Positions 277-41,979 of a stretch of DNA of 49,669 nt are shown here, one piece after another. Both the position numbers and the translations under genes were made by a program. Source of the stretch: a virus. The stretch is taken from IMG/VR virus record IMGVR_UViG_3300037088_000785, positions 1-49,669 of that record. One strand, written 5' to 3'. Numbering within the stretch: position 1 is the stretch's first letter; every line of letters starts with the position of its first letter. A model generated the notes under the pieces. It ran no database searches, was not told the DNA's origin, and saw only the letters and a program-made list of their open reading frames with translations.

Positions 277-3200
277 TCACTTCGACAATTCCCGCCTGAT
301 CTCTTCCAGCTTCGGGAGAGCCTTGGACCTCTCTTCCGGGCTCCGGCTGTTCCAGAAGTGGCGGAAGATTGTCGGCCCGATTTTCTTCTTTTCTTCCTGA
401 TTCGCTTTCTCCCATATCCGAAGGGATTCTGTCAAGCTCAAATGGCCAACGGTTTGCTCCAGGGGTTCGTTGGTGATCCGGCGCTGGAACTTCTTTACAT
501 CGGAAGATTGCAGCTTCCCCGCCTTCACGGCGGATGCCACTGAATCCATGATCGGCTTGGTGGGCGCCCCGGACCTCTGGGCATCCAGGAACTCTTTGGA
601 CTTCTGCTTCAGGAGCTTGTACCGCTCAAACTCCGCCTTGCTTCGTCCCCCTGTGGGGAGCTTCTCCGCGGCGATCTCCGTGGCAAGTTGTTGGGCCGGA
701 GACTTCTCAATCCAGTAAGGGGCCTTGGTCCCCCCGAGGAACCCGGTGATCGACCGCGCCGTACCCTGCCCCTCTTCGCTCATTCTCTGCCAGGTGGAGA
801 AAGAGAAGGGCAATGGGACCAGGTGAATCATATCGTCGATCCTCTGATTCAAAACATTGTCATCCGGGTCATGGACTTTGACCCCATAAAAATCTTTGTT
901 GTTCAGGACCTCTCCCAGCCGACCAATCCACCCAGACATCGAGCTCGTCACATATTTGATCGGAGAATGGGCGACATGGAACAGATCCCGCATGTAGGTC
1001 GGAAGGGAGATCCGGTCTCCCTGCTCGTTGATCTTGGGGTAAACCATATCCTTCCACTCTTCCGGTCCCTTCCCGGTGAAGGCATACTGAGCGATCGAGG
1101 CGAGCGCCGTGGTGGTGGCCAGGAGGCCCCAGGACCAGGCCATTTCCTGTGTCAGCTTCGGCATCCGTCCTTCTCGAAGAGCGTTGACCAGCTCCGCCGA
1201 TTGCCCGGTGATCGCATTACCGTAAGCCCGGATGTTTCCCATCTTCCAGGTGACTGAACGGGTAAGCATCTGAAGGGAGGTCTTGAAATTCCGGTCCCAG
1301 AAGAGGTTATCGAAATTCATCTCTCCAAACCGGTTCTCCACAAAATCCCACACACTCCGGGCCAGCTCTCCCCGGGTCGTCTTGCCCGCATCGATGTCCG
1401 CCCTCTTGGCCGACAGTTCATTCGAGAATTCCTTCATGAAGAGGCCCCATTTCAACTTGGGGATGTAGTTCTCGAAGAGGGGCTTCATCATCATTTCGTT
1501 CAAAGCGGGGATGGACCGGAGGCCAGCTCCGATGTAATTCTTTGACTTTAGATTTGCCTGAAAGGTCTTCAGGGAGTTTATCCGGTAATCCTCGTGCATC
1601 CCCAGCTTTCCGCCGGCGCCGAAGAGGTCATCGATCATCTCCGCCGCCCCGGGGTACTTCTGGATGAAGTCCTGCCCCTTGACGGTCTGTAGGAATTCTT
1701 GGGGGTTGGCAAAATATTTCATGGCCGCGCCCCCCTCCTTGGCCATCTTGATGGCCGCCAAGGGAGCCTTGAGCATGTCCACCAGGCCCTCTTCGACCTT
1801 TCCTTGATTCCACACCTTCCTCAATCCAAGGCCGAATTGCGAGGACACCGCCTCCAGGGTTTCAAAAGCGAAGTGGAAAGGAGAAAGGCTCAACTCCATC
1901 GCCGTGCTGACGTTTTTCCAGAACATGAGGCCGGAGCCGATCGGGGATTCCCGGAGGTAATCCCGGCCAAGGTAATTGTTCAGGAGGCGGGCCGCGTTCT
2001 CTTCGACGTACCATTCCCCGGCCTGCACCATCCCAAAGTCTCTCCCCTTTCTCTCCGCGGTGACGGTGCGCTCCGGGAATTCCATCTTGAGGTCCACCGG
2101 GCGTTCTTTGGCCGGGAAGAAGACTTTGGCTATTTTGTCGTTCAGCTTGGAGAATCCCGTGGGAGCCTGCTCGCCCTTCCTCACGAATACTCGAGCCCCG
2201 ATGTCCTTCAGACCGCTCCACATCTCCTGAGTGGATATGAATTTCAGGGCGTCCCGGTAGTGCATCTCCATGAGCTCCATCGGATTATAGGAGAAAGGTA
2301 TTCCGCCCGCCTTAATGCCTTCAGAAAGGGTCGGATAAATCATTTGTTTGAAATATCCCTTCGAACCCTCAAGGTTTCTTCTACTGAGCCAATGCTTGAA
2401 TTCCTCTTCGGTACGTCCAGGGATTACCTTCCACATCAGCCGTAAATGGTTCTCGATCCAATTCATGTCCGGCTTGTATTTTCGGTACTGCTCCCCGATA
2501 TCCCGGTCCAGGTCCCGGATGAACTGGTCCATTTGCTGAAGCCGGGGGGTCTCCTGGGGAGTCCCGGTTTTGACGTTATCGATGAATTTAATCAGATCCG
2601 CTTGAGGCATCGCGGCAAATTCCTTGGTCATGTTCTGATTGACGCGATCGACCATGAATTCGGAAATCTTCCGCTCCATGTATCCCTTGCGGTCCATGAT
2701 CAGGTCCAGGATCTTCGTGGGGACCCCGTGCCGGGGAACAGCGGCATGGACGATGCCCGAGATCGTCTTCCCGAGGCCCTCCTTAAATTGGTAGGCCTTG
2801 GGGATGATATCCTCATCTTTGAATCTTTTGGCCGTGTCTCCGGCAACCGATTGGAGGTTGGGGAAATTCTGGGCTACATCCTGCAGGGTGTGGGGTTGGC
2901 CTCCAAGGGTTATGGTGGGCTCTGCCATTGGTCCAGGGCCTTTTCTCAGGTGCTCTTGAGCCTTGGAGATGGTGCTACGGAGCTGCTCATCGGTCAGGTC
3001 TTTTGCCCATTTCCCCCCGGACAGCTTGTAAATCGCATCCCGGAGGAGAGCGTAGAACTTTTCGAGCATCGAGGGATTCGTGTGATTCTCAGCCATGAGG
3101 GCAATCTTTTCCCACGCCGCCGTCCCCCTCCCTTCGGCGGTATCCAGGTCGAGGCCCCATCTTTTAGCGATATCGGCCATCCCGCTTTTTCCGGAGGAAT

Positions 3201-6200
3201 TGAAAACTCGTTTAAGAAATTTTCCCAACTCCGCATCGGTGAGCATGGCATCAAGGGCGTAGTGGCCCAGCATCTCGTGGCGGATAACTTCGCCCACCCG
3301 CCTCAGGTCCCCCATCCGGCTAGAGATGACGTAGATGGTTTTCCCGTCCCTGGAGTACATGGCCTCGGTCGAAGGGCCTGCCGCTTCTCTCGCCCCCGGA
3401 GGAAGCTCCGCAATACTGTCGATGATCTTCACCGCGGGGGCACCCTTCAGCCCCTTCAATTCCTGATCGACTGCGCCCTGAATTTGGTTTCTCCATTCTG
3501 CCAGTTCTGGTCTGGGTCCTTCGGTCCCTTCTCCCTGCGATAAGAGCGTCCCTTGCGCCTTCTTCTCCCCGGGAAACAAGCCCTGGTCGGTCATGCGCTC
3601 GGCCTTGCCCTTGGTCTTCGCTTCCCCTCGGGCTTTGGCCTCTTCCGCGAAAGAACGCATGATCTGATTGAACTGCTCAGGGTTGGTTTCGGAGAGCTTC
3701 TGTAGCCGGGCTATTTCCGGATCGGAGACGCCGAAGGCCTTCAGGGATTTGATCTCCTGGGCGTTGAGCTCTCGTGCTTGGGGCTTCAGGGGCATTTCGG
3801 AACGGAGAGTCATAACAGCCTGAGTTTTCGCAATTTTAGAAAGGCTTATTTCCTCCGCCGATTGCGTTCTGGCGATTGCGTTGTAGACCTTCTCCGCTTT
3901 TTTCAAAGCCTCCTGATCCCATTCGGACTTTCTGCCACCAGAATCAACAACCCTTCCCTGAAGAGAAATATCTTCTGCGCTTCCTCCCCAACGGAAAAAG
4001 GCGAGTGTCCTATCTTCCTTCCCCTGCGTGAAGTGGTTGTAGAGTCGCTGGAGATTGTCAGTTACTTCTCTTCCCCAATTTTTTAACCGCTCAGAAGTGG
4101 AATAAACCCCCGTTGCTCGATCATGGATTCCAAGCGCGTCAAGGGCCTTCTCTGCTTCTCCTTTTGCCAGCCCACTTCCTTTGATTGCGGCTTCTCTCCA
4201 CTTCGAAAGGTCTACGCGGTCGATCCGGTCTCTATCCCCATAGAGCATTCGAAGTTGAGATAATTCATCCGGAGAGATTTTACTTGCAGGGGGTTCGACG
4301 CCCATCTTTTGATATTCTTCGGGGAAGAGGGGAGCCTTACTGACCGCATCCCACCCGTATTTTTTAGTAAGGGTATCCTCAAGGTCATCGATCCTCTTTT
4401 GCGCTTCTTCGCTCGTTTTCGGCTTTGAAACCTCCTTGGGTCCCTCAGATCGGAGGAAACCGAAGGCCTCTTTCTGCTTTTCTTCTTCGGTCTCTACGGC
4501 TTTGTCCAGCTTCTCTTTCTCTCCCCTGGCCGGAGGCTCAATCCCGGGAATCTCCGGTCCCCGCACCTGCTTCACCAGCTCGGGGTCGCTGTACCACTTC
4601 GACCAGCGGACGATCTGGTTCTGGATGTCCTTGACCTTCTTTTGAACTCCCTGGGGATCCTGGATGTCCACCCCGTATTTCTTTGCTATCTCCGGCCGCT
4701 TGCTGGCTCCCCTGATTGCGTTGAGCTGCTCGCGGAGGCTTTTGACGATCTCGGACACCCGAGCAGCGTCATTCTCTGCCTGGAGGATGGCCTTGTCGTT
4801 GAACTTGAAAAGCCCACCCTGCTCCTGTGGGACTCCTGCACCCTCGGGGGCCAACTTCAAGGCATTCATGAAGGACTCGATCAGGAGGGGGTCGGCCTTC
4901 GGGTTCTTGAGAGAGTACGCTACCCCCGCGTTTTGGAGGGATTCGTCTTTCGGAGCTGTGGCCGATATAGCTTCAGCGGCATCCGACGTGATTTTTCGAT
5001 TTCGGAATAGGGTATAGGTCCCATCCGTAGCGAACTTGCCAATGGCGAAACCTTTTCCCGCAAGACCTCGTTTGCGGGCGTCTGCTTCGTCGTATCCGTC
5101 GGTGAGCCGGAAGTATTCTGCGTGGTCATAGACCGTCCCCTTTCCATCAAGGATGTTTGCCTCGGCGGCCTTCTGCCGGGCGTCCTGCATGGTGAACCCG
5201 TCCACTTCGCGGACGACCTGAGCGTTGAGGGTGGTGTCCGGGTTGATGCTCTTGGCATGGGCAACCCTGTGATGCCCGTTGGCCACGAAAAGAGTGCCGT
5301 CCTTTCGCTCCCAGAGAAGGACCAGGCCGGCCGCCGCTTCGTTCCATTCCCCTTCCAGGGGTTTTTGGACCCCCTGCTCATCCACGTCCTTCTTGAATTG
5401 GAGGCCCTTAACGTCCGTCTGGACGTCCCCGGCGCGAACCTGGCGGATAGGGATCTTCCGGGTATCCGCTGCCCCGGCCATCGGCTTCCCGGGTTCATCC
5501 GGGCCCGTGTTCGGTTTATCTCCCACCGGAGGAGGCGGGGGAAGGTCCGGCTCTTCTGCCTCTTTTTTAGGCACTTCCGGGGTTGGGGGTGAAACCTTTT
5601 CCGGGGCTGGGGTCTGCTCTTTTGTGGGGAAGGTCTGCTTCTGCCCGAAAAGGTCGGGTTGGTCTCCGAGATTTGGGGAAACCCCTGGTTCCAGGGGTGT
5701 TTCTTTAGGGGATAATCCCTCTCCCGTAGGTCCCGGACGAGGGGGTAAACGCCCCTCCCGTAGAGCCTCCGGGAGCGCAGGAGGCACTTTCTCTCCTGGG
5801 GGCTTGGTCTTACCCTTCCCCCCCATAAGTCCCATCCCAGCCCCGATTACGGCGGAAGGGATGCCTTCTTTGAAAGCCGGTCCAGCCGGGAGTCCTTGAC
5901 GTAGATTCTCGATCACGTTCTGGCCGCCAAAGGTCGCCGCCATTCCAGCGGCCCGCTTCAGCCTACCAAGGGGATGCAGAGCTTCCAAAATGCCACCTGT
6001 GGCCGCTCCTTCCAGTCCTCTCTCCAGGGCCTTCTTTCCCCCTTCGGGAGACGCCTGCAGGGCCTCCACGCCCCCGAATCCGGCGATGTTACCGATTGCC
6101 CGGGCTGTTCTTGCTCCCACCCCCAGGGCTTTCAAAGGGGCGGTCACCGCGGCCGAGGGGCCAAGATAGGTCGGGATGGTGGGGAGAGCCTGGCCAGCTC

Positions 6201-6501
6201 CATAGGCGATCTTGTGGGGGATATCCAACCCGGGAACTTCCTCTTGGGGTAGGAAGGTATTCTTCAGGACCTTTTCGGCTTTGCGCATGGTCGGGGCAGG
6301 CCTTCCCGCCAGCTCGGAAAGATCGGCGCCGAGCTCGGGGATCATCCCCACCCCGTGCATGAATCCGGCCCCTGCCGTGCGAAGGTAGCCGGGTTGGGAG
6401 GTGGTCCCCCCGCCGGATGTGCGGGGGTCGGAATCAACATGCTCCCATCCACCTTCTGTTTGCCGGGGGTCGGAATCGACATGCTCCCAAGAGGTCGCCA
6501 T
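277..6501 (-). CDS. Giant (2,074 aa) multidomain polyvalent / ejected virion protein
   Basis: The N-terminus carries two copies of WEHVDSDPR (residues 5-13 and 19-27). Residues about 40-230 are Gly/Ala-rich and hydrophobic, as in membrane-active ejection proteins. Residues about 345-560 resemble the ParB/DdrB-like nuclease domain found in large polyvalent proteins (IPIRQVRAGDVQ, then FVANGHHRVAHAKS). HEMLGHY at about 1075-1081 is a zinc-metallopeptidase HExxH motif. The C-terminal third is mostly helical, with one hydrophobic stretch near 1785-1810 (SWGLLATTTALASIAQ) and a charged tail. Such multidomain proteins are known to be packaged and injected by podoviruses to protect incoming DNA; that role is inferred here. 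The start has a GGGAGG site six bases upstream. It is the last complete gene of the late block. Confidence 0.8.
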   Translation of the reverse strand: MATSWEHVDSDPRQTEGGWEHVDSDPRTSGGGTTSQPGYLRTAGAGFMHGVGMIPELGADLSELAGRPAPTMRKAEKVLKNTFLPQEEVPGLDIPHKIAYGAGQALPTIPTYLGPSAAVTAPLKALGVGARTARAIGNIAGFGGVEALQASPEGGKKALERGLEGAATGGILEALHPLGRLKRAAGMAATFGGQNVIENLRQGLPAGPAFKEGIPSAVIGAGMGLMGGKGKTKPPGEKVPPALPEALREGRLPPRPGPTGEGLSPKETPLEPGVSPNLGDQPDLFGQKQTFPTKEQTPAPEKVSPPTPEVPKKEAEEPDLPPPPPVGDKPNTGPDEPGKPMAGAADTRKIPIRQVRAGDVQTDVKGLQFKKDVDEQGVQKPLEGEWNEAAAGLVLLWERKDGTLFVANGHHRVAHAKSINPDTTLNAQVVREVDGFTMQDARQKAAEANILDGKGTVYDHAEYFRLTDGYDEADARKRGLAGKGFAIGKFATDGTYTLFRNRKITSDAAEAISATAPKDESLQNAGVAYSLKNPKADPLLIESFMNALKLAPEGAGVPQEQGGLFKFNDKAILQAENDAARVSEIVKSLREQLNAIRGASKRPEIAKKYGVDIQDPQGVQKKVKDIQNQIVRWSKWYSDPELVKQVRGPEIPGIEPPARGEKEKLDKAVETEEEKQKEAFGFLRSEGPKEVSKPKTSEEAQKRIDDLEDTLTKKYGWDAVSKAPLFPEEYQKMGVEPPASKISPDELSQLRMLYGDRDRIDRVDLSKWREAAIKGSGLAKGEAEKALDALGIHDRATGVYSTSERLKNWGREVTDNLQRLYNHFTQGKEDRTLAFFRWGGSAEDISLQGRVVDSGGRKSEWDQEALKKAEKVYNAIARTQSAEEISLSKIAKTQAVMTLRSEMPLKPQARELNAQEIKSLKAFGVSDPEIARLQKLSETNPEQFNQIMRSFAEEAKARGEAKTKGKAERMTDQGLFPGEKKAQGTLLSQGEGTEGPRPELAEWRNQIQGAVDQELKGLKGAPAVKIIDSIAELPPGAREAAGPSTEAMYSRDGKTIYVISSRMGDLRRVGEVIRHEMLGHYALDAMLTDAELGKFLKRVFNSSGKSGMADIAKRWGLDLDTAEGRGTAAWEKIALMAENHTNPSMLEKFYALLRDAIYKLSGGKWAKDLTDEQLRSTISKAQEHLRKGPGPMAEPTITLGGQPHTLQDVAQNFPNLQSVAGDTAKRFKDEDIIPKAYQFKEGLGKTISGIVHAAVPRHGVPTKILDLIMDRKGYMERKISEFMVDRVNQNMTKEFAAMPQADLIKFIDNVKTGTPQETPRLQQMDQFIRDLDRDIGEQYRKYKPDMNWIENHLRLMWKVIPGRTEEEFKHWLSRRNLEGSKGYFKQMIYPTLSEGIKAGGIPFSYNPMELMEMHYRDALKFISTQEMWSGLKDIGARVFVRKGEQAPTGFSKLNDKIAKVFFPAKERPVDLKMEFPERTVTAERKGRDFGMVQAGEWYVEENAARLLNNYLGRDYLRESPIGSGLMFWKNVSTAMELSLSPFHFAFETLEAVSSQFGLGLRKVWNQGKVEEGLVDMLKAPLAAIKMAKEGGAAMKYFANPQEFLQTVKGQDFIQKYPGAAEMIDDLFGAGGKLGMHEDYRINSLKTFQANLKSKNYIGAGLRSIPALNEMMMKPLFENYIPKLKWGLFMKEFSNELSAKRADIDAGKTTRGELARSVWDFVENRFGEMNFDNLFWDRNFKTSLQMLTRSVTWKMGNIRAYGNAITGQSAELVNALREGRMPKLTQEMAWSWGLLATTTALASIAQYAFTGKGPEEWKDMVYPKINEQGDRISLPTYMRDLFHVAHSPIKYVTSSMSGWIGRLGEVLNNKDFYGVKVHDPDDNVLNQRIDDMIHLVPLPFSFSTWQRMSEEGQGTARSITGFLGGTKAPYWIEKSPAQQLATEIAAEKLPTGGRSKAEFERYKLLKQKSKEFLDAQRSGAPTKPIMDSVASAVKAGKLQSSDVKKFQRRITNEPLEQTVGHLSLTESLRIWEKANQEEKKKIGPTIFRHFWNSRSPEERSKALPKLEEIRRELSK

Positions 6502-6512
6502 TGTCTGCCTCC

Positions 6513-8633
6513 CTACTGTTGAACCTTTCTGCGCTGGAATCCACCTTGCGGGTCGCGCCGGTACTCATAGCCACCATGGACAAACGGCTGGTTTTCTCCC
6601 TCCATTTTTTTGAGGTACTCCCGATACGGCTGCGCGATCTGCTCTGGAATCTGCCCGCCGTCGGCCCTTCTCACGATTTCTTGAGCCGCTCCGGGCATGT
6701 CGATGGACTTGTTCCCCTGGATGTCTGTCGTCATATACCGCTGCTCGATCTGCCCCATGGTCATCTGTAGAATTTGCATCTCTCTCCACGAATCCCTGCT
6801 CTGTTTACCCTCCATCATGGTTGCCATCCGCATTTTGGTTTGCTCCACGAGGCCCAGCCAATGAAGCTGATTGGCTTGCGCCTGGAGGCCGGCCTTGCGG
6901 TATTCGTCGGCCCTGGAGAGGAAATTATTCACTGTCCCCTCCATCTCTTTCATCGAGCGGCCCTCCCCGGACGTTGCTCCCATGGGGGTCATGAGCATTC
7001 CGCCGCCCCACGGCCCACCTGCTTCTGACATTCTGGCAATCTGCCTATCATGGGGTCCCGGGGGTATCCCTGTCCCTCCTTCACCTTCTCTCATCGTCCC
7101 AAGGTCTTTGGGAGCGAACCATTGGGAATAAGCCTTGTTGCCCTTGATCACCTGGACGGTGCGCCCTCCGGAGGGTAAATCTTCGGAAGGGACGATCCCG
7201 CCCTGGTAGGATGCCCGGTTGAATTGCTCTCCGAATCTGTCCGGAGGATCGGGGATGTCCTGCAGGTGACTAAGAACGTCCCCTTCGGGATTACCCGCCG
7301 GTCCTCTCACGGCGAGAGATGTTGACCCTCCCCCGCGTCCCCCCAGGTAGGGTGCTGGAGTCTTGGCCGGGGGGTTGGGTGATGCCGCCCCATGCGAAGG
7401 AGCAAGGTCCGAACCTGAATCTTTCGGCTGTGGTGCGGGGGGCAAGAAACCCCGTATCGGAGCCATCAATCCTTCCCCGATCGCCTTTACCCCTCCCCAG
7501 GGGTCTCCTCCGGTACGGGTCGGGGCCGCTGGTGTTTCCGGGAGCATACCGGTCCGATGAGGATTCAGTCTTTGTCTCCAGGTGGGTTGCACCGGATCCA
7601 CTTCTCCGCCTTCCGCCCTGGCAAACATCGGAGTGGTCGGAAATACATAAGGGGGACGCTCAACCGGATAGACAGAACCCCCTTCCTTCATGGGGAACAC
7701 AGGGAAGGACGAACTTCCACCCCCGGCGAAGCTCGGGGCCACCGGTCCCCCAAACTGCCGCGAAGAATAATTCCACATCCCTTCCGAGGAGTAGGGGTCA
7801 ACGGCAAAAGTAGGAATTGGAGGTTTGCGGGCGCTATCATCTGACCCCGGCTGGAATGGCGAAGGAGGGAGTGCACGCCGTTCAAACCCGAAAGGGCTGA
7901 TCGAAGATCCGCTGAAAGGCGTGGGGCCTTTTCGCTCCCATGAGAAGGGGGATAGTGGAGACCCAGAAAAACCCGTATCCGGGGGAGCGGGAGCCGCCGG
8001 TGCGCCTCCTTGATCCGGGAGAGATGGAGAAACCGGTCCTCCTTCCTGCCTGGGAGCCATGGGAAGGCCTCCCCCTGCTTGATTCGCCTGATTGGGTATA
8101 ACTTCACCCGGAGCCGTCGGAAAGTAGTACCCAGGGGCCGTTACGGTCTCAGGATTGCCATCTTCGGCCACGGTGTAGCCGTGAGAGGGGGCCATACCCC
8201 CTCCCTCCGGTGATGGCGGCCCGCCGGGGTTCCTGCCGGGAGGGGCCGAGGGGGGCAAACCCCCTCCTTCTCCCCCTTGGGGGATGCCGAGAGCTTTTCT
8301 TCCCAGGTCCACAAGAAACTGCGCCACATATTCCGGGACCGAACTGAGCTGCCCCATGCTGATCGATTCAGCCGGCTTGGGGGATGGCATAGGTCCGGAT
8401 CCGGAAGGCGGGGGTCCAGGGGGACCCCCTCTTTGTGGTAGGCCTGGGGGCCCTGCCTGGCCTGCAGGACCACCAGGAGGGGCCGGTGGTAAGGCGGCCC
8501 CGGGGGATGAAAAAGGACCCGAAGGGGTGCTGGTCTCCCCCATTCCCGGGGGAACACCGGCGCCCTGGAGCATCTGCCGGGCATGACTTTGAGCCCTGGA
8601 AACCAACTCCGGATGAATATATCCGCTTGCCAT
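6513..8633 (-). CDS. Pro/Gly-rich virion-associated protein (706 aa)
   Basis: The protein is low complexity. Residues 1-25 look helical (YIHPELVSRAQSHARQML), then roughly 450 residues are dominated by Pro, Gly, Ser and aromatic residues, including the near-repeats PLSPFSWERKGPTPF and SPFGFERRALPP. Only the last about 150 residues look like an ordered helical domain (RADEYRKAGLQAQANQLHWL). The Gly spacing is irregular, so it is not collagen-like. It ends 12 bases before the giant polyvalent gene and has an AAGGGGG site before its ATG. Position and composition suggest an internal or tail-associated virion protein that accompanies DNA ejection. I do not recognise the family. Confidence 0.65.
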   Translation of the reverse strand: MASGYIHPELVSRAQSHARQMLQGAGVPPGMGETSTPSGPFSSPGAALPPAPPGGPAGQAGPPGLPQRGGPPGPPPSGSGPMPSPKPAESISMGQLSSVPEYVAQFLVDLGRKALGIPQGGEGGGLPPSAPPGRNPGGPPSPEGGGMAPSHGYTVAEDGNPETVTAPGYYFPTAPGEVIPNQANQAGGGLPMAPRQEGGPVSPSLPDQGGAPAAPAPPDTGFSGSPLSPFSWERKGPTPFSGSSISPFGFERRALPPSPFQPGSDDSARKPPIPTFAVDPYSSEGMWNYSSRQFGGPVAPSFAGGGSSSFPVFPMKEGGSVYPVERPPYVFPTTPMFARAEGGEVDPVQPTWRQRLNPHRTGMLPETPAAPTRTGGDPWGGVKAIGEGLMAPIRGFLPPAPQPKDSGSDLAPSHGAASPNPPAKTPAPYLGGRGGGSTSLAVRGPAGNPEGDVLSHLQDIPDPPDRFGEQFNRASYQGGIVPSEDLPSGGRTVQVIKGNKAYSQWFAPKDLGTMREGEGGTGIPPGPHDRQIARMSEAGGPWGGGMLMTPMGATSGEGRSMKEMEGTVNNFLSRADEYRKAGLQAQANQLHWLGLVEQTKMRMATMMEGKQSRDSWREMQILQMTMGQIEQRYMTTDIQGNKSIDMPGAAQEIVRRADGGQIPEQIAQPYREYLKKMEGENQPFVHGGYEYRRDPQGGFQRRKVQQ

Positions 8634-14734: not shown

Positions 14735-17356
14735 TCAGAAAGTCAAAGAACCCGTGGTTAAGAGCGATTCTACGCCGGTATCATCCACGCTGGTCACGGC
14801 AAAGTTGATTGTTCCGATCAGCGCGGGAGTGTGGGCCAGGGGGATCGTGCATTGAGTGACGATGCCGAGCTGGTCATACGGCGTATCATAGTCCGGAACG
14901 TCCGGGTCCGCAAGCGCCCGCACCCGGACGGCCACGATGTCAAGGTCGTCTTCGGGAAGATCCCATGAAAGGGTATACGTTAAAGTCGAAGCGGAAGAGC
15001 TTGAGCTGGAGCTCGAATACGAAGACGAAGAACTTGAGCTTGAAGATGAAAAGCTGGATGAGCTTGAACTCGATGAAGAGTTGGATTGCGAAGAAGAGCT
15101 CAAGGACATGGATGAGCTGGATAGTGAAGAGGAGCTCAAGGACAGGCTCGAAGAGCTGGAGCTAGAAACGGACGAGCTCGATGAACTCGACACGCTGGAA
15201 CTCGAAGACGAGGATACGGATGACGAACTGGAAGAGCTGAAAGAGCTGGACTGAGATGATGAGCTCGAAGAGCTGAACGATCCGGAGCTTGAACTGGAAC
15301 TGGAAAACGAATAATTCGCGTAGAGCTGGAAATACGGGAACGAAACATTGAAGGTCCCGAACCTTCTTTTCTTTATGGGGGGATCCGGTAATGGAAGCTC
15401 AAACTCATAGAATTTCTTCCACTCCTCCGCCCGTGCGGATGGAACGTGGTTCACCCCGGCGATAAAGTCTTCGACCTGATCGGGGATATGGGGGATGTGA
15501 AAATCAACCTGGGATGAGGACCAGGAAGATGAAGAAGAGCTGCTCGAACTCCATGAAGACGACGAAGAGGATGAGGACATCGAGGAGCTGCTACTCGAAC
15601 TCGAAGAAAAAGACTGAGACGAGGAGCTGGAGGACGAACTCGAAAAGGAGGAGCTACTGCTCGAAAAGCTCGAACTCGAAGACGAGAACGACGAGCTTGA
15701 GCTTGAAGATGAGCTGGACAGCGAGGAACTGGAACTCGATGAAGACCTTGAGGATGAAGACGATCTGGACGAACTCGAAAACGAAGATGAGCTGAAACTC
15801 GAAGACGAGGAAAGGCTGGATGAGCTAGAGCTCGATGAAGACGAACGGCTGGAAGAAGAACTGGAAGATGAACTTGATACCGATGAACTGGAGGACCGCG
15901 ATGAAGACGAAGAGCTGAAACTTGAACTGGAAAAAGAGGATGAAGACGAGCTTGAGAAGGAAGACGAACTCGACCGTGAACTGGAAGAAAAGCTCGAACT
16001 GGAAAAAGAGGATGACGAACTGGATAGGCTTGAGGATGATGAACTGGACGAAGCCCCGGCTTCATAGAGGGCCGCGATATCGGCATCCGATAGAATCCGG
16101 TTGTAAATGCGGACTTCATCGAGATCCCCGCGGGGAGCGCGGGCGATGGTGTAGTCATTACCTATCCTGAAGGTTGAGGTATTTCCAGATACCGATCCGG
16201 AGCCAATGGTGTCGCCGTCCAGGGCGGTGAGCAGAACGCCATCCGCATATAATTTGCAGACGCCGGTATCATAGGAATAGGCCAGGGCAAAATGGTGCCA
16301 GCCGGTGCTCAGATTCCCCAGGCTTTTGTAATGATCCCCATATACCGCGCTCCACCGGTCGAAATCCCCGACAAGATAAACCGGACCCCCATTATAGGTG
16401 CTCAAATACATCCGGTCGCCAGCCGTGCCCGCGCCGCTCTGACCCTTGGACATAAGCATTTGGATGGCGGTATCTCCCTGAGAGAGGAGATGGAACCAGC
16501 AGGCGAAAGTCATGTAGGTCAGGTTGTCGATCGCCGCATAGTGGGGAACGCCGAGGTTGTCGGTTGTCCCCAGATCCATCCTTACGGCGTTGCCAACCTT
16601 CCCCGTGACGGATTTATTCGTTGCTCCTTCATTCGAGGAGAAATTCGCGGTATTACCGTTTCCCAGACCGTCCGCCAGGGTAGCGCCATTGTTGGCCGGG
16701 CTGTCATCCAGGGGCCAGTAGCCGACGAGGCCCGTGGTGTAATCCGGGGGGCCGGTACTCGATGAGCTTGAAGATGAGAACGAGGAGGAAGAAGAACTCG
16801 ACTTCGATGAACTGGAGGATGAAGCGGAAGAAACGCTTGAACTGCTTGAGCTGGAAGAGCTCGGGGCCTCGGTGTTGACCTCTATGGCATCGATTACCCG
16901 ATGGTAGCAGGGGGAATATCCGTCGGGCTGGGGATAAACCAAAGTGTCGTCATCCGAGGTCCGTTTGATGGACGCCGTACCAGAGAAGGCGTAACTCCAT
17001 CCCACTTTCGCTGGATTGAGAAAAGCGAAGTGAAAAGAATATCCCTTTGTCATATCAAAAACAAAAGGAATCCAGTCTGACCACTTATCAACGCCGGCGG
17101 AAACGGAGAACCCCGGGTTGCCGCCGTCGAAGGTAATGCGCGTGGGTGTGGCCGCAAAGTCCGGGGCGGTCCCCGTTTCTCCTATCGATGCGCCGCTGAC
17201 CTCTACGGCAGTGAACGGTTCGGCCGGGAAGTGAACGCGAATTTGCAGTCCGCTGTATGCGAAGTCGGCGGGGTACAGACAGTTCCTAATATTATAGGGA
17301 TTGGCTTGCTCCGTCTGGGCGGGAAGAGTGGTTGACCATGTGGTTTGGATGGACAC
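14735..17356 (-). CDS. Serine-rich modular tail fiber-like protein with LamG and FnIII domains (873 aa)
   Basis: Order of parts: residues 1-165 beta-rich N-terminal domain; about 166-200 a first Ser tract; about 205-432 a LamG/concanavalin-A-like domain (LVGYWPLDDSPAN, GWHHFALAYSYDTG, GDLDEVRIYNRILSDADI); 436-615 a 180-residue Ser tract broken by single F, R, V, L, M, W or Q; 616-684 a middle segment containing SFPYFQLYAN; about 685-789 a third Ser tract with F, V, L, M, Y; 790-873 an FnIII-like domain. About 300 residues lie in Ser tracts. LamG and FnIII domains imply sugar or surface binding. The tracts resemble O-glycosylated serine-rich linkers; that glycosylation is inferred from the neighbouring glycosyltransferase genes. 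Confidence 0.85.
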   Translation of the reverse strand: MSIQTTWSTTLPAQTEQANPYNIRNCLYPADFAYSGLQIRVHFPAEPFTAVEVSGASIGETGTAPDFAATPTRITFDGGNPGFSVSAGVDKWSDWIPFVFDMTKGYSFHFAFLNPAKVGWSYAFSGTASIKRTSDDDTLVYPQPDGYSPCYHRVIDAIEVNTEAPSSSSSSSSSVSSASSSSSSKSSSSSSSFSSSSSSSTGPPDYTTGLVGYWPLDDSPANNGATLADGLGNGNTANFSSNEGATNKSVTGKVGNAVRMDLGTTDNLGVPHYAAIDNLTYMTFACWFHLLSQGDTAIQMLMSKGQSGAGTAGDRMYLSTYNGGPVYLVGDFDRWSAVYGDHYKSLGNLSTGWHHFALAYSYDTGVCKLYADGVLLTALDGDTIGSGSVSGNTSTFRIGNDYTIARAPRGDLDEVRIYNRILSDADIAALYEAGASSSSSSSSLSSSSSSFSSSSFSSSSRSSSSSFSSSSSSSFSSSSFSSSSSSRSSSSSVSSSSSSSSSSRSSSSSSSSSSLSSSSSFSSSSFSSSSRSSSSSRSSSSSSSSLSSSSSSSSSSFSSSSSSFSSSSSSFSSSSSSSSSQSFSSSSSSSSSMSSSSSSSSWSSSSSSSSSWSSSQVDFHIPHIPDQVEDFIAGVNHVPSARAEEWKKFYEFELPLPDPPIKKRRFGTFNVSFPYFQLYANYSFSSSSSSSGSFSSSSSSSQSSSFSSSSSSSVSSSSSSSVSSSSSSSVSSSSSSSLSLSSSSLSSSSMSLSSSSQSNSSSSSSSSSFSSSSSSSSSSYSSSSSSSSASTLTYTLSWDLPEDDLDIVAVRVRALADPDVPDYDTPYDQLGIVTQCTIPLAHTPALIGTINFAVTSVDDTGVESLLTTGSLTF
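14984..15318. repeat. Poly-serine coding tract 2 (between middle segment and FnIII)
   Basis: About 105 codons, mostly Ser with F, V, L, M, Q and Y spaced every five to nine residues, in the fiber-like protein. Confidence 0.8.
15512..16057. repeat. Poly-serine coding tract 3 (180 residues)
   Basis: The longest tract. Decoding 15541-15600 shows TCA, TCC, TCG, TCT, AGC and AGT side by side, with M and W as interrupting residues. Confidence 0.8.
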
Positions 17357-37756: not shown

Positions 37757-37861
37757 ATGAGGGGGAACGGAAATAAAACGAACCCGACAGATAAACCCTG
37801 GCCGGGTTATACGCCGGGTGTTGGAAAACTGTTCCCCCTTCGAATTTTAAAGGAGGAGTGA
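37757..37861 (+). CDS. Small ORF (34 aa), possibly translated, with inverted repeat
   Basis: Frame MRGNGNKTNPTDKPWPGYTP ending in FPLRILKEE; its stop overlaps the ATG of the next gene (TGATG). The sequence carries AGGGGGAAC (37760-37768) and GTTCCCCCT (37831-37839) as a nine-base inverted repeat with AACCC/GGGTT between. Its own ribosome site is poor. It may be a coupling peptide or just the folded leader of the DUF5131-like gene. Confidence 0.3.
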   Translation: MRGNGNKTNPTDKPWPGYTPGVGKLFPLRILKEE

Positions 37862-38742
37862 TGTCAATAGCAGAAATGATCGGCAAAGAAAATATCGCCA
37901 AGGGTCGGTACTGGAGACTTCCCTGGTCCCTCGTTTTAGGATGCACTCGATGTTCTCCGGGGTGCGATCACTGTTGGGCGCTGGCGATGGAGAAGCGGTT
38001 TGGAGGGCGCGAAGATGATTTTATGCCGGGACAATTTCATCCAGGTGAAGTTAGGGTTCACCCCGAGCGCCTTGACATCCCCCTGAAGCGCAAGAAGCCG
38101 ACCGTCTGGGCCATTTGGAATGACCTTTTTCATAAGGATGTTCCTTGGCGGTTTGTGGACGATGCTTTGGCCATAATGGGATGTTGTGAATCTCCCGATA
38201 TGAGAAAGCATATATTTTTGGTTCTCACCAAGAGGTCCCAAAGAATGCTTAATCACGCTCGACATAGACAGGAAAATTGTATGGTGTGGCCTCCGAATGT
38301 ATGGGCTGGCGTCACCGTCTGCAACCAATCCGAAGCCGACGAGAAAATCCCCATTATGCTTCAGATCCCCGCGGCGGTGCGGTGGGTGAGCATTGAGCCG
38401 ATGCTGGGGCCGATGGACATTAAAAAATATCTATGCAGCCATGCTAATTGCGAGGATTGGGGCCTTTGCCATGGTAATCACCGAAACCTCTGTGCTCAAA
38501 ACGGAATGATTTCGTGGGTCGTCCTCGGTGGCGAGACCGGACTAGGTGCAAGGCCGATGCACCCCGATTGGGTAAGATCTGTCAGGGACCAATGCCAAGC
38601 AGCAGGGGTGCCGTTCTTTTTTAAGGGAATGTTACTTGACAAAAAGAAAAAAACCTTGTATCTTGATGGTAGAACTCATTTGGAGGTGCCGAATGCCATA
38701 CAAGGACAAGGAAGTAGCGAAGGTAAAAAGCAGAGAGCGTAA
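37861..38742 (+). CDS. Gp37/Gp68-type radical-SAM-like phage protein (DUF5131, 293 aa)
   Basis: ATG chosen because AGGAGG precedes it. CTRCSPGCDHCWALAMEKRF near residues 30-49 is the Cys cluster of the phage Gp37/Gp68 family (DUF5131), usually 'vtGCtkvSpGCdhCYA'. Further, VWAIWNDLFHKDVPWRFVD, FLVLTKRSQRM, WVSIEPMLGPM and WVVLGGETG all fit. The family is radical-SAM related and of unsettled function in phages. The end YLDGRTHLEVPNAIQGQG differs from the usual ending because the HNH gene starts inside it. Confidence 0.75.
   Translation: MSIAEMIGKENIAKGRYWRLPWSLVLGCTRCSPGCDHCWALAMEKRFGGREDDFMPGQFHPGEVRVHPERLDIPLKRKKPTVWAIWNDLFHKDVPWRFVDDALAIMGCCESPDMRKHIFLVLTKRSQRMLNHARHRQENCMVWPPNVWAGVTVCNQSEADEKIPIMLQIPAAVRWVSIEPMLGPMDIKKYLCSHANCEDWGLCHGNHRNLCAQNGMISWVVLGGETGLGARPMHPDWVRSVRDQCQAAGVPFFFKGMLLDKKKKTLYLDGRTHLEVPNAIQGQGSSEGKKQRA
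38636..38664 (+). promoter_or_regulatory. Promoter in front of the free-standing HNH gene
   Basis: TTGACA (38636-38641), 17 bases, TATCTT (38659-38664), inside the end of the DUF5131-like gene; 23 bases further a GGAGGT site leads to the HNH ATG at 38693. Confidence 0.5.
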
Positions 38743-40427: not shown

Positions 40428-40921
40428 TTACAGAAGAAAAGTTCTTAGAAGAGATAAAGCATGTCGCCCACATGCGGCTGATAAACATCCCCGTGGCGGC
40501 CGCCAAAGATGTCTTCGATCGGTTCTCCTCCTTCGAAGAGGAGGATCTCCGGATGGCTTGCGAATCGATCACCTTATCGGAAGATAGATTTGACTTCTCA
40601 AAGCTATGGCGCGTCATGTCCAATAAAAGGGCGCAGCGTCTTGAAAGCGAATCCACGGAAGACCACATCTCCGAAGCCCGGGCGGCCGCTCGTTTCTTCG
40701 ACGAGAACAGATTCGCCGGCGAGTGCACCCGGGAGTCATGCCGAGGATGCCCCAGGATAAAAAACCCCAAGGTGGATGGATGCGAGGTCCGCAGCAAGGA
40801 GTGGTTGAAAAATATCAACACCCTTCTGTCTGTCGAAAATAGACCGAAGGGTGAAGGAAAACAAATGGCCGAGGACATAATTCACTACATGAAAAACGAA
40901 TTCATGGGAGGGATAAGTTGA
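40424..40921 (+). CDS. Putative helicase-loader-position protein with Cys motif (165 aa)
   Basis: The ATG overlaps the previous stop as ATGA. Residues about 100-118 contain CTRESCRGCPRIKN, then GCEVRSKEW, a possible zinc site. The rest is helical (MRLINIPVAAAKDVFDRFSS). Place after the initiator and coupling suggest a helicase loader or primase-associated protein; no AAA+ motif is seen, so it is not a DnaC-like ATPase. Unassigned otherwise. Confidence 0.55.
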   Translation: MITEEKFLEEIKHVAHMRLINIPVAAAKDVFDRFSSFEEEDLRMACESITLSEDRFDFSKLWRVMSNKRAQRLESESTEDHISEARAAARFFDENRFAGECTRESCRGCPRIKNPKVDGCEVRSKEWLKNINTLLSVENRPKGEGKQMAEDIIHYMKNEFMGGIS

Positions 40922-41979
40922 GGCTCATAGACCTTTTTTCCGGCATCGGAGGATTCTCCCTGGCGGCCGAGTGGTGCTGGGGCGCCGACCTTGAGATCGA
41001 GGCCTTTGTGGAAATCGACCCCTTCTGCCAAAAGGTATTGGCTAAAAACTTTTCAGGAGTTCCAATTTATGACGACATCAAAAAGATTCAGTGGGTTGTT
41101 GCCGAGTCCACGGGCGCGAATGACGGGAGATATTTCAGAGAATCGCAAGCAGGACAAATTCCCGAACCTGGAAACGGTTCTAAGCCGAACCCTTCTTCCA
41201 ACCCCGAGAGCGAACAAATTGACTCCGCAAAGCCGGGAGGACTTCACCCCGAACCTAGCATGGAGGTTAGAACATCCCGAATCGACCTCCTCACCGGAGG
41301 CTTCCCCTGCCAGCCTTTTTCCTGCGCCGGGAAGAGAGGAGGCGCAGAGGATGACCGCCACCTCTGGCCGGAGATGCTTAGAACGATTCACGAGGTCAAG
41401 CCCAGATGGGTCGTGGCAGAAAATGTTCCCGGACTCCTTACTCTGCAAGACGGACTGGTATTCGAGGGAGTGTGCGCTGGCCTGGAAGCTGAAGGTTACG
41501 AAGTTCAGCCGGTTATTATTCCAGCTTGTGCCCAAGGTGCGCCGCACAGAAGGGACCGGGTTTGGATTGTTGCGAAGTCCACAAGCGGGGGATGCGGATC
41601 ACGGGGGACCGAATGCGAGGGACAGCTCGGGGCACCCTCACTTGACCAGTCAGATTGCCATGCTCCCGACACCGAAAGGAACACCGAGCGGGCCGGATTA
41701 TGCCAGGAAGATCCAGGAGGGAAGTGGAGGGGACGACCTGGAAACGAAACTTGGCAAGAACACTGGTATGAAGTTGCAACCCGCCTTTGTCGAGTGGATG
41801 ATGGACTACCCCGAGGGATGGACCGAGTTAATCGACTGAAGGCTTTGGGAAATTCCATTGTCCCTTCCGTGGCTTACCAGATATTCATGGCCATAAAAAA
41901 CACCGACAAGGAAAACAAGACCCTAGACACTTACCCTTTTCCGGGGAGAAAAACTCAATGGCACCCCCTTTCCGCTTGA
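40918..41979 (+). CDS. C5 cytosine DNA methyltransferase, Dcm type (353 aa)
   Basis: TTG start, overlapping the upstream stop (TTGA) with GGGAGGG before it. Motif I DLFSGIGGFSLA (5-16), catalytic GGFPCQPFSCAGKR (127-140, Cys131), ENVPGLL (168-174), RRDRVWIVA (211-219) and LKALGNSIVPSVAYQI near the end are all intact. The enzyme methylates cytosine C5, probably to escape restriction or modify the phage. A 50-60 residue low-complexity insert (QAGQIPEPGNGSKPNPSSNP) sits between motif I and the catalytic region, exactly where a second frame is coding. Confidence 0.85.
   Translation: MRLIDLFSGIGGFSLAAEWCWGADLEIEAFVEIDPFCQKVLAKNFSGVPIYDDIKKIQWVVAESTGANDGRYFRESQAGQIPEPGNGSKPNPSSNPESEQIDSAKPGGLHPEPSMEVRTSRIDLLTGGFPCQPFSCAGKRGGAEDDRHLWPEMLRTIHEVKPRWVVAENVPGLLTLQDGLVFEGVCAGLEAEGYEVQPVIIPACAQGAPHRRDRVWIVAKSTSGGCGSRGTECEGQLGAPSLDQSDCHAPDTERNTERAGLCQEDPGGKWRGRPGNETWQEHWYEVATRLCRVDDGLPRGMDRVNRLKALGNSIVPSVAYQIFMAIKNTDKENKTLDTYPFPGRKTQWHPLSA
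41069..41839 (+). CDS. Overlapping alternate-frame protein inside the methyltransferase (256 aa)
   Basis: Open in the +1 frame of the methyltransferase. Start at ATG with AGGAG nine bases upstream. The product contains LLPSPRARMTGD, FPNLETVLSRTLLPTPRA, SSPDGSWQKMFPDSLLCKTD, WYSRECALAWKLKVTKFSRL, RRTEGTGFGLLRSP and FVEWMMDYPEGWTELID. From memory the 'RRTEGTGxGLLpTPxxxD' and 'FVEWMMGFPxGWT' patterns recur in database proteins next to phage cytosine methyltransferases; a search must confirm. It could be a real dual-coding gene or an artefact of conserved methyltransferase codons. Confidence 0.5.
   Translation: MTTSKRFSGLLPSPRARMTGDISENRKQDKFPNLETVLSRTLLPTPRANKLTPQSREDFTPNLAWRLEHPESTSSPEASPASLFPAPGREEAQRMTATSGRRCLERFTRSSPDGSWQKMFPDSLLCKTDWYSRECALAWKLKVTKFSRLLFQLVPKVRRTEGTGFGLLRSPQAGDADHGGPNARDSSGHPHLTSQIAMLPTPKGTPSGPDYARKIQEGSGGDDLETKLGKNTGMKLQPAFVEWMMDYPEGWTELID

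Follow-up and report, generated by a model that had tools for sequence, protein, structure and literature searches.

The analysis revealed that a gene for a C5-cytosine DNA methyltransferase (alpha) in the window, i.e. the whole of a 49,669-base IMG/VR virus record, contains a second gene (beta) read in the +1 frame. Constraint was detected on both frames, the internal start codons of beta are conserved, and motif IX of the methyltransferase is split between the frames in a complementary manner. We estimate at about 0.83 the probability that the two products form one enzyme, a two-polypeptide C5-cytosine methyltransferase in which alpha would be catalytic and beta would contribute target recognition and motif IX. 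Translation of alpha would begin at TTG 40918 and that of beta, by internal initiation, at ATG 41069; alpha would supply the catalytic domain (AdoMet binding, the catalytic cysteine and motif X), and beta its conserved N-terminal domain, LPTP modules acting as the target-recognition region, and motif IX. We infer that beta is made, bound to alpha, required for methylation and responsible for setting the target, and that the assembled single enzyme has a protective role, probably shielding phage DNA from host restriction.

Two genes in one DNA segment

The gene for alpha (353 aa; 40918-41979, + strand) starts with TTG, just after a GGAGG sequence, and its stop codon ends at 41979. The protein matches PF00145 (1.3e-43), phrog_363 (4.7e-70) and TIGR00675, as well as M.HhaI, the latter both by sequence and by structure model (model match 1e-13). 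The sequence-only reading had stated that this frame retains all methyltransferase motifs, which holds for the recognised motifs I-VIII (including PCQ of motif IV and ENV of motif VI) and X, but not for motif IX, which lies in the second frame. In an alignment of 54 sequences motif IV (GFPCQPFS, with the catalytic cysteine; 41299-41322, +) and the E and N residues of motif VI (ENV; 41419-41427, +) are invariant, and motif X (LKALGNSIVP; 41836-41865, +) is nearly so; motif VIII (RRDRVWIVA; 41548-41574, +) was located in the same alignment and aligned to M.HhaI. An AlphaFold2 model of alpha is confident and M.HhaI-like over motifs I-VIII and X, and falls below pLDDT 50 at residues 226-279, the expected position of the recognition region. 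A low-complexity insert (approximately 41092-41271), placed by the earlier reading where the second frame begins, is real; it separates the motif I-III part from motif IV and overlaps two LPTP modules of beta. In two relatives (L012 and L046) alpha is extended by over 100 residues after the beta stop and ahead of motif X; the two added blocks are similar to each other, and beta ends 494 and 575 nt, respectively, before the alpha stop.

The second frame is open for 256 codons, as had been described, from an ATG at 41069 to 41839 (+ strand, phase +1), and is preceded by a Shine-Dalgarno-like AGGAG (41055-41059, +) with a 9-nt spacer. Homologues of its product were found: beta matches the phrog_1008 profile (E 8.4e-24), the same family was recognised in all 62 aligned betas, and homologues are present in all of the loci L001-L086. 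The following parts were distinguished in beta (all on the + strand): (i) two LPTP modules (LLPSPRARMTGD..., LLPTPRANKLTPQ...; 41096-41278), common to L002, L003, L005, L008, L018 and L024, (ii) a conserved N-terminal domain with nearly invariant columns (MTATSGRRCL...DWYSRECALAWKLKVTKFSRLLFQLVP; 41288-41566), encoded over alpha motifs IV-VIII, (iii) LPTP modules 3 and 4 (LLRSPQAGDADHGGP..., MLPTPKGTPSGPDYARKIQEGSGGDDL; 41567-41764), proposed as the target-recognition region from in-frame matches in actinophages and from the divergence of this block, and (iv) motif IX (KLQPAFVEWMMDYPEGWTEL; 41771-41830), identified by profile match to single-chain actinophage methyltransferases. The LLPTP-like blocks noticed from the sequence are thus present as LPTP modules. 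In the structure model of beta the N-terminal domain contains a confident beta hairpin at residues 136-156. Pfam holds no family for beta, PDB sequence searches with beta and with its profile gave nothing significant, and an AlphaFold2 model built from 62 sequences (mean pLDDT 57) was too poor to be informative and found no fold match in the PDB.

Motif IX and the fused and split relatives

The C-terminal end of beta is the motif IX that alpha lacks (LQPAFVEWMMDYPEGWTEL), so the association of the second product with phage cytosine methyltransferases, proposed in the earlier reading, extends to a missing part of the enzyme itself. This end aligns in register with the canonical motif IX (KLTPRECxRLQGFPD). 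By profile the match to the canonical motif is weak (probability 22%, E 0.001 with a single target compared), and that to the stretch immediately preceding motif X in single-chain actinophage methyltransferases is strong (97%). A search for motif IX in the alpha frame of the nested loci located it in beta only, and among approximately 280 viral loci it was never present in both frames; loci with motif IX in the methyltransferase frame have no beta with motif IX elsewhere. Apparent exceptions to this split were traced, by inspection by eye, to strict regular expressions.

A scan of bacterial and archaeal genomes, seeded by a pattern derived from beta alone, returned 80 loci. In 78 of them beta overlaps alpha in phase +1 and alpha lacks motif IX (77 nested, one partly overlapping); the remaining two lie at a contig end and in a masked stretch, and no stand-alone beta was found among the 80. 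According to the record titles these loci come from Bacteroidota, Bacillota, Proteobacteria and others, and many of them are likely to be prophages, a status we assigned indirectly. One candidate for beta and methyltransferase in a single ORF (L362) was rejected, as the ORF passes through masked N.

Segments of beta occur within one chain in actinophages. In phage Seagreen a single protein is matched by phrog_363 (residues 1-504) and by phrog_1008 (residues 313-510), and in phage Ailee the LPTP modules and motifs IX and X are all within the methyltransferase chain. Toaka, Goose, Pharaoh and Eesa have split methyltransferases whose second chain contains the LPTP modules and motifs IX and X; the split follows motif VIII and the genes partly overlap in the first three, and the genes are adjacent in Eesa. 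Module 4 of the window (LPTPKGTPSGPDYARKIQEGSGGDDL) recurs in frame in the single-chain or split methyltransferases of Ailee, Seagreen, Toaka and Eesa. The same segments therefore belong to a methyltransferase elsewhere and, as judged from sequence comparison, the modules and motif IX of beta are homologous to in-frame parts of single-chain enzymes. One frameshift could suffice to turn the nested form into the fused one or back. Three actinophage single-chain methyltransferase genes (L225:1840-2236, L228:1828-2344 and L237:1495-2350) also contain a +1 ORF, shorter than beta, whose product has LPTP modules and an N-domain like that of beta but no motif IX; because this beta-like ORF has been retained, both frames of the same gene encode LPTP modules.

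These observations bear on the possibility that beta is a real but independent phage protein, e.g. an anti-restriction or regulatory factor, which overprints the methyltransferase by happenstance. Beta does have a conserved N-terminal domain of its own over motifs IV-VIII, of no known family. Nevertheless, single-chain methyltransferases contain the C-terminal half of beta in frame, and in the split ones it occurs as the IX-X part, and neither the exclusive placement of motif IX nor the lack of any stand-alone beta in the genome scan fits a protein with a separate function, which makes this explanation unlikely.

Constraint on the two frames

Of the 154 nested loci, 147 have kept an in-frame ATG for beta upstream of motif IV (47.3 expected), and 45 have Shine-Dalgarno-like 4-mers ahead of this ATG (7.7 expected). 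The strong conservation of these ATGs argues against programmed frameshifting, which, alone or in addition to internal initiation, would join the N-terminal part of alpha and beta in one long polypeptide. Such a shift, by +1 and close to motif VIII, would indeed yield the order seen in actinophage single-chain enzymes, but the conserved N-domain of beta lies upstream of any such shift and motif X would be lost unless a second shift took place; we regard this mechanism as very unlikely.

The openness of the second frame was analysed in 66 non-redundant loci, picked by similarity of the methyltransferase protein alone, i.e. without selection on the second frame, and stops from motif IV up to just short of motif X were counted against synonymous codon shuffles. 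The +1 frame contained 4 stops vs 290.3 expected (z -23), and was stop-free in 64 of the 66 loci (0.7 expected); stops in relatives, which would have contradicted the earlier reading, are thus essentially absent. Frame +2 was at chance (842 stops vs 867 expected), and none of 31 canonical methyltransferases with motif IX in frame was stop-free in +1. The reverse frames deviated mildly in both directions, which indicates that the shuffle null is imperfect, and none came near the +1 effect. For the window alone, 0.5% of synonymous shuffles left the +1 overlap free of stops (3.95 stops expected). When beta of the window was compared with the +1 frames of 64 relatives, the median score was 92.8 bits, as against 26.3 bits for shuffles preserving the methyltransferase, and in the corresponding control none of 3200 such shuffles attained the observed beta score of its own locus; the beta match is therefore no echo of methyltransferase conservation. 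The stop, echo and start-codon tests bear out the proposal that a methyltransferase and a second long protein are encoded in the same DNA. The notion that the codon composition of the methyltransferase keeps the +1 frame open, or that this frame is what remains of an old out-of-frame recognition region, is barely credible and, as the main explanation, refuted by the 4 vs 290 stops: long spurious ORFs do occur on the other strand here and actinophage single-chain genes do retain partial beta-like ORFs, but the synonymous shuffles (window, echo and 66 loci), the conserved beta starts and the absence of the effect in frame +2 (near absence in canonical methyltransferases) all stand against it.

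The strength of constraint varies along the overlap, as revealed by regional identities computed on alignments of beta. Over motifs IV-VIII alpha is the more conserved (0.647 vs 0.468 for beta), and after motif VIII the order is reversed (beta 0.413 vs alpha 0.273); in the latter region substitutions per beta codon position were 0.43, 0.42 and 0.59, the third position being the most frequently changed. It is thus shown statistically that beta is the dominant constraint after motif VIII. A test by codon position within motifs IV-VIII was dropped, since the share of position 3 (0.536 vs 0.521 upstream) did not separate the frames. In the upstream insert the second frame had been suggested to be the main constraint. 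Pooled over loci, identities there show no clear difference between the frames (0.469 vs 0.455), and the apparent dominance of beta in this part rests on the shared LPTP modules, not on the identity statistic.

Six pairs of loci with closely similar catalytic parts showed 70-86% identity in the beta N-domain, 22-35% in the module block and 67-100% in motif IX; for the pair L078/L057 the values were 69% (just under this range), 35% and 92%. A divergent block between conserved flanks resembles the exchange of target-recognition domains, and beta probably carries the recognition region of the methyltransferase. The window has two extra LPTP modules upstream of motif IV, which account for the low-complexity insert of alpha; similar modules lie upstream of motif IV in L002, L003, L005 and L008, and downstream of motif VIII in L018 and L024. 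Tentatively, beta might be an exchangeable specificity subunit. Its LPTP modules would then be recognition cassettes subject to gain, loss and exchange, including transfer into the upstream part of the gene; each could be read in the +1 frame only, and the alpha codons overlapping it would be forced into a low-complexity linker. If this is true, a single stretch of DNA would harbour the evolution of specificity in one of its frames and that of catalysis in the other.

Relation to known systems and to annotation

The locus is best read as a predicted split enzyme of the M.EcoHK31I type with beta nested in alpha; its methylation activity and target are likewise predictions. In M.EcoHK31I (YGGCCR) the large subunit has motifs I-VIII and X and the small subunit motif IX (PMC3404938, citing Lee 1995), and the predicted target-recognition domain was reported in the large subunit (PMC3404938). 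The partition of motifs between alpha and beta is the same, M.EcoHK31I being considered here by its published description. Plasmids were also searched for a relative of this enzyme, and annotated methyltransferases were obtained, none with a name linking it to M.EcoHK31I. Its small-subunit gene lies, we assume, in an alternate frame inside the large-subunit gene, an overlap that the phase +1 nesting seen here would match. The two systems would differ in that the recognition domain of M.EcoHK31I is reported to be in the large subunit, whereas here the region after motif VIII, with its LPTP modules, is constrained mainly in beta. M.AquI is naturally split after motif VIII, its second chain containing the recognition region and motif IX (PMC3404938), and Toaka, Goose, Pharaoh and Eesa appear to be split in this way; motif X, too, belongs to the second chain of M.AquI and of these actinophage enzymes, while here it is in alpha and beta is fully nested.

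Members of phrog_1008 in the same phase and with the same nesting are annotated as internal genes in Paenibacillus phages (Lily g63, 'g62 internal gene', and Bloom_57) and are also present in Escherichia phage fKuEco01 (KE1_033); the records give no mechanism. Overlapping C5 methyltransferases in Streptococcus thermophilus 5093-group phages, pneumococcal phage MM1 and Tn5252 were noted as striking, two frames being used on one DNA (PMC5601072). P0091 differs from the arrangement described here, as motif IX is retained within its methyltransferase and is absent from the second ORF, which belongs to phrog_16143. Out-of-frame HNH endonucleases, as in ShiLan, were described in actinophage methylases (PMC11855218); they likewise place a second frame inside a phage methyltransferase gene, but represent a homing insertion with an HNH product and no methyltransferase part. 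The kind of arrangement is thus already known (the M.EcoHK31I partition, the streptococcal overlaps and the Lily internal gene), and the additions of this study are the recognition modules in beta, the breadth of distribution and the complementary motif split. In the open-licence literature we did not find the generality, the exclusive motif split or evidence of dual constraint.

Outside small viruses it is rare for one gene to lie entirely within another on the same strand with selection acting on both frames, and annotation commonly discards such genes. In the present case each frame appears to supply one half of a single enzyme, an arrangement seen in many phages and prophages from several phyla, and one of these halves is usually filed as hypothetical or left unannotated. 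Phage methylome studies that clone the annotated methyltransferase alone would express an enzyme that lacks motif IX and probably also the recognition region. Several records annotate one frame only (L086:2920-3534, L091 and L085); in a Porphyromonas phage record the nested ORF is annotated as hypothetical and the overlying methyltransferase is unannotated, and in the BS-TP4 and R23.9 records the methyltransferase alone is annotated.

Streptococcal-phage methyltransferases with their own motif IX and a different +1 ORF (phrog_16143) were observed in L098:1451-1873, L147, L148, L157 and L170. The end of this ORF (approximately DILEENV..KYFLS) is similar to the beginning of canonical recognition regions but lies in a different frame from the methyltransferase, and +1 stops are modestly depleted in the group (287 vs 363).

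Elsewhere in the window, a terminase and a connector protein are encoded on the strand opposite the methyltransferase, and a replication-initiation protein just upstream of it. Three long ORFs on the - strand (277-6501, 6513-8633 and 14735-17356; 2074, 706 and 873 aa) have no PHROG match. A DUF5131 protein (PF07505, E 9e-64) is encoded near the methyltransferase, at 37858-38742 (+).
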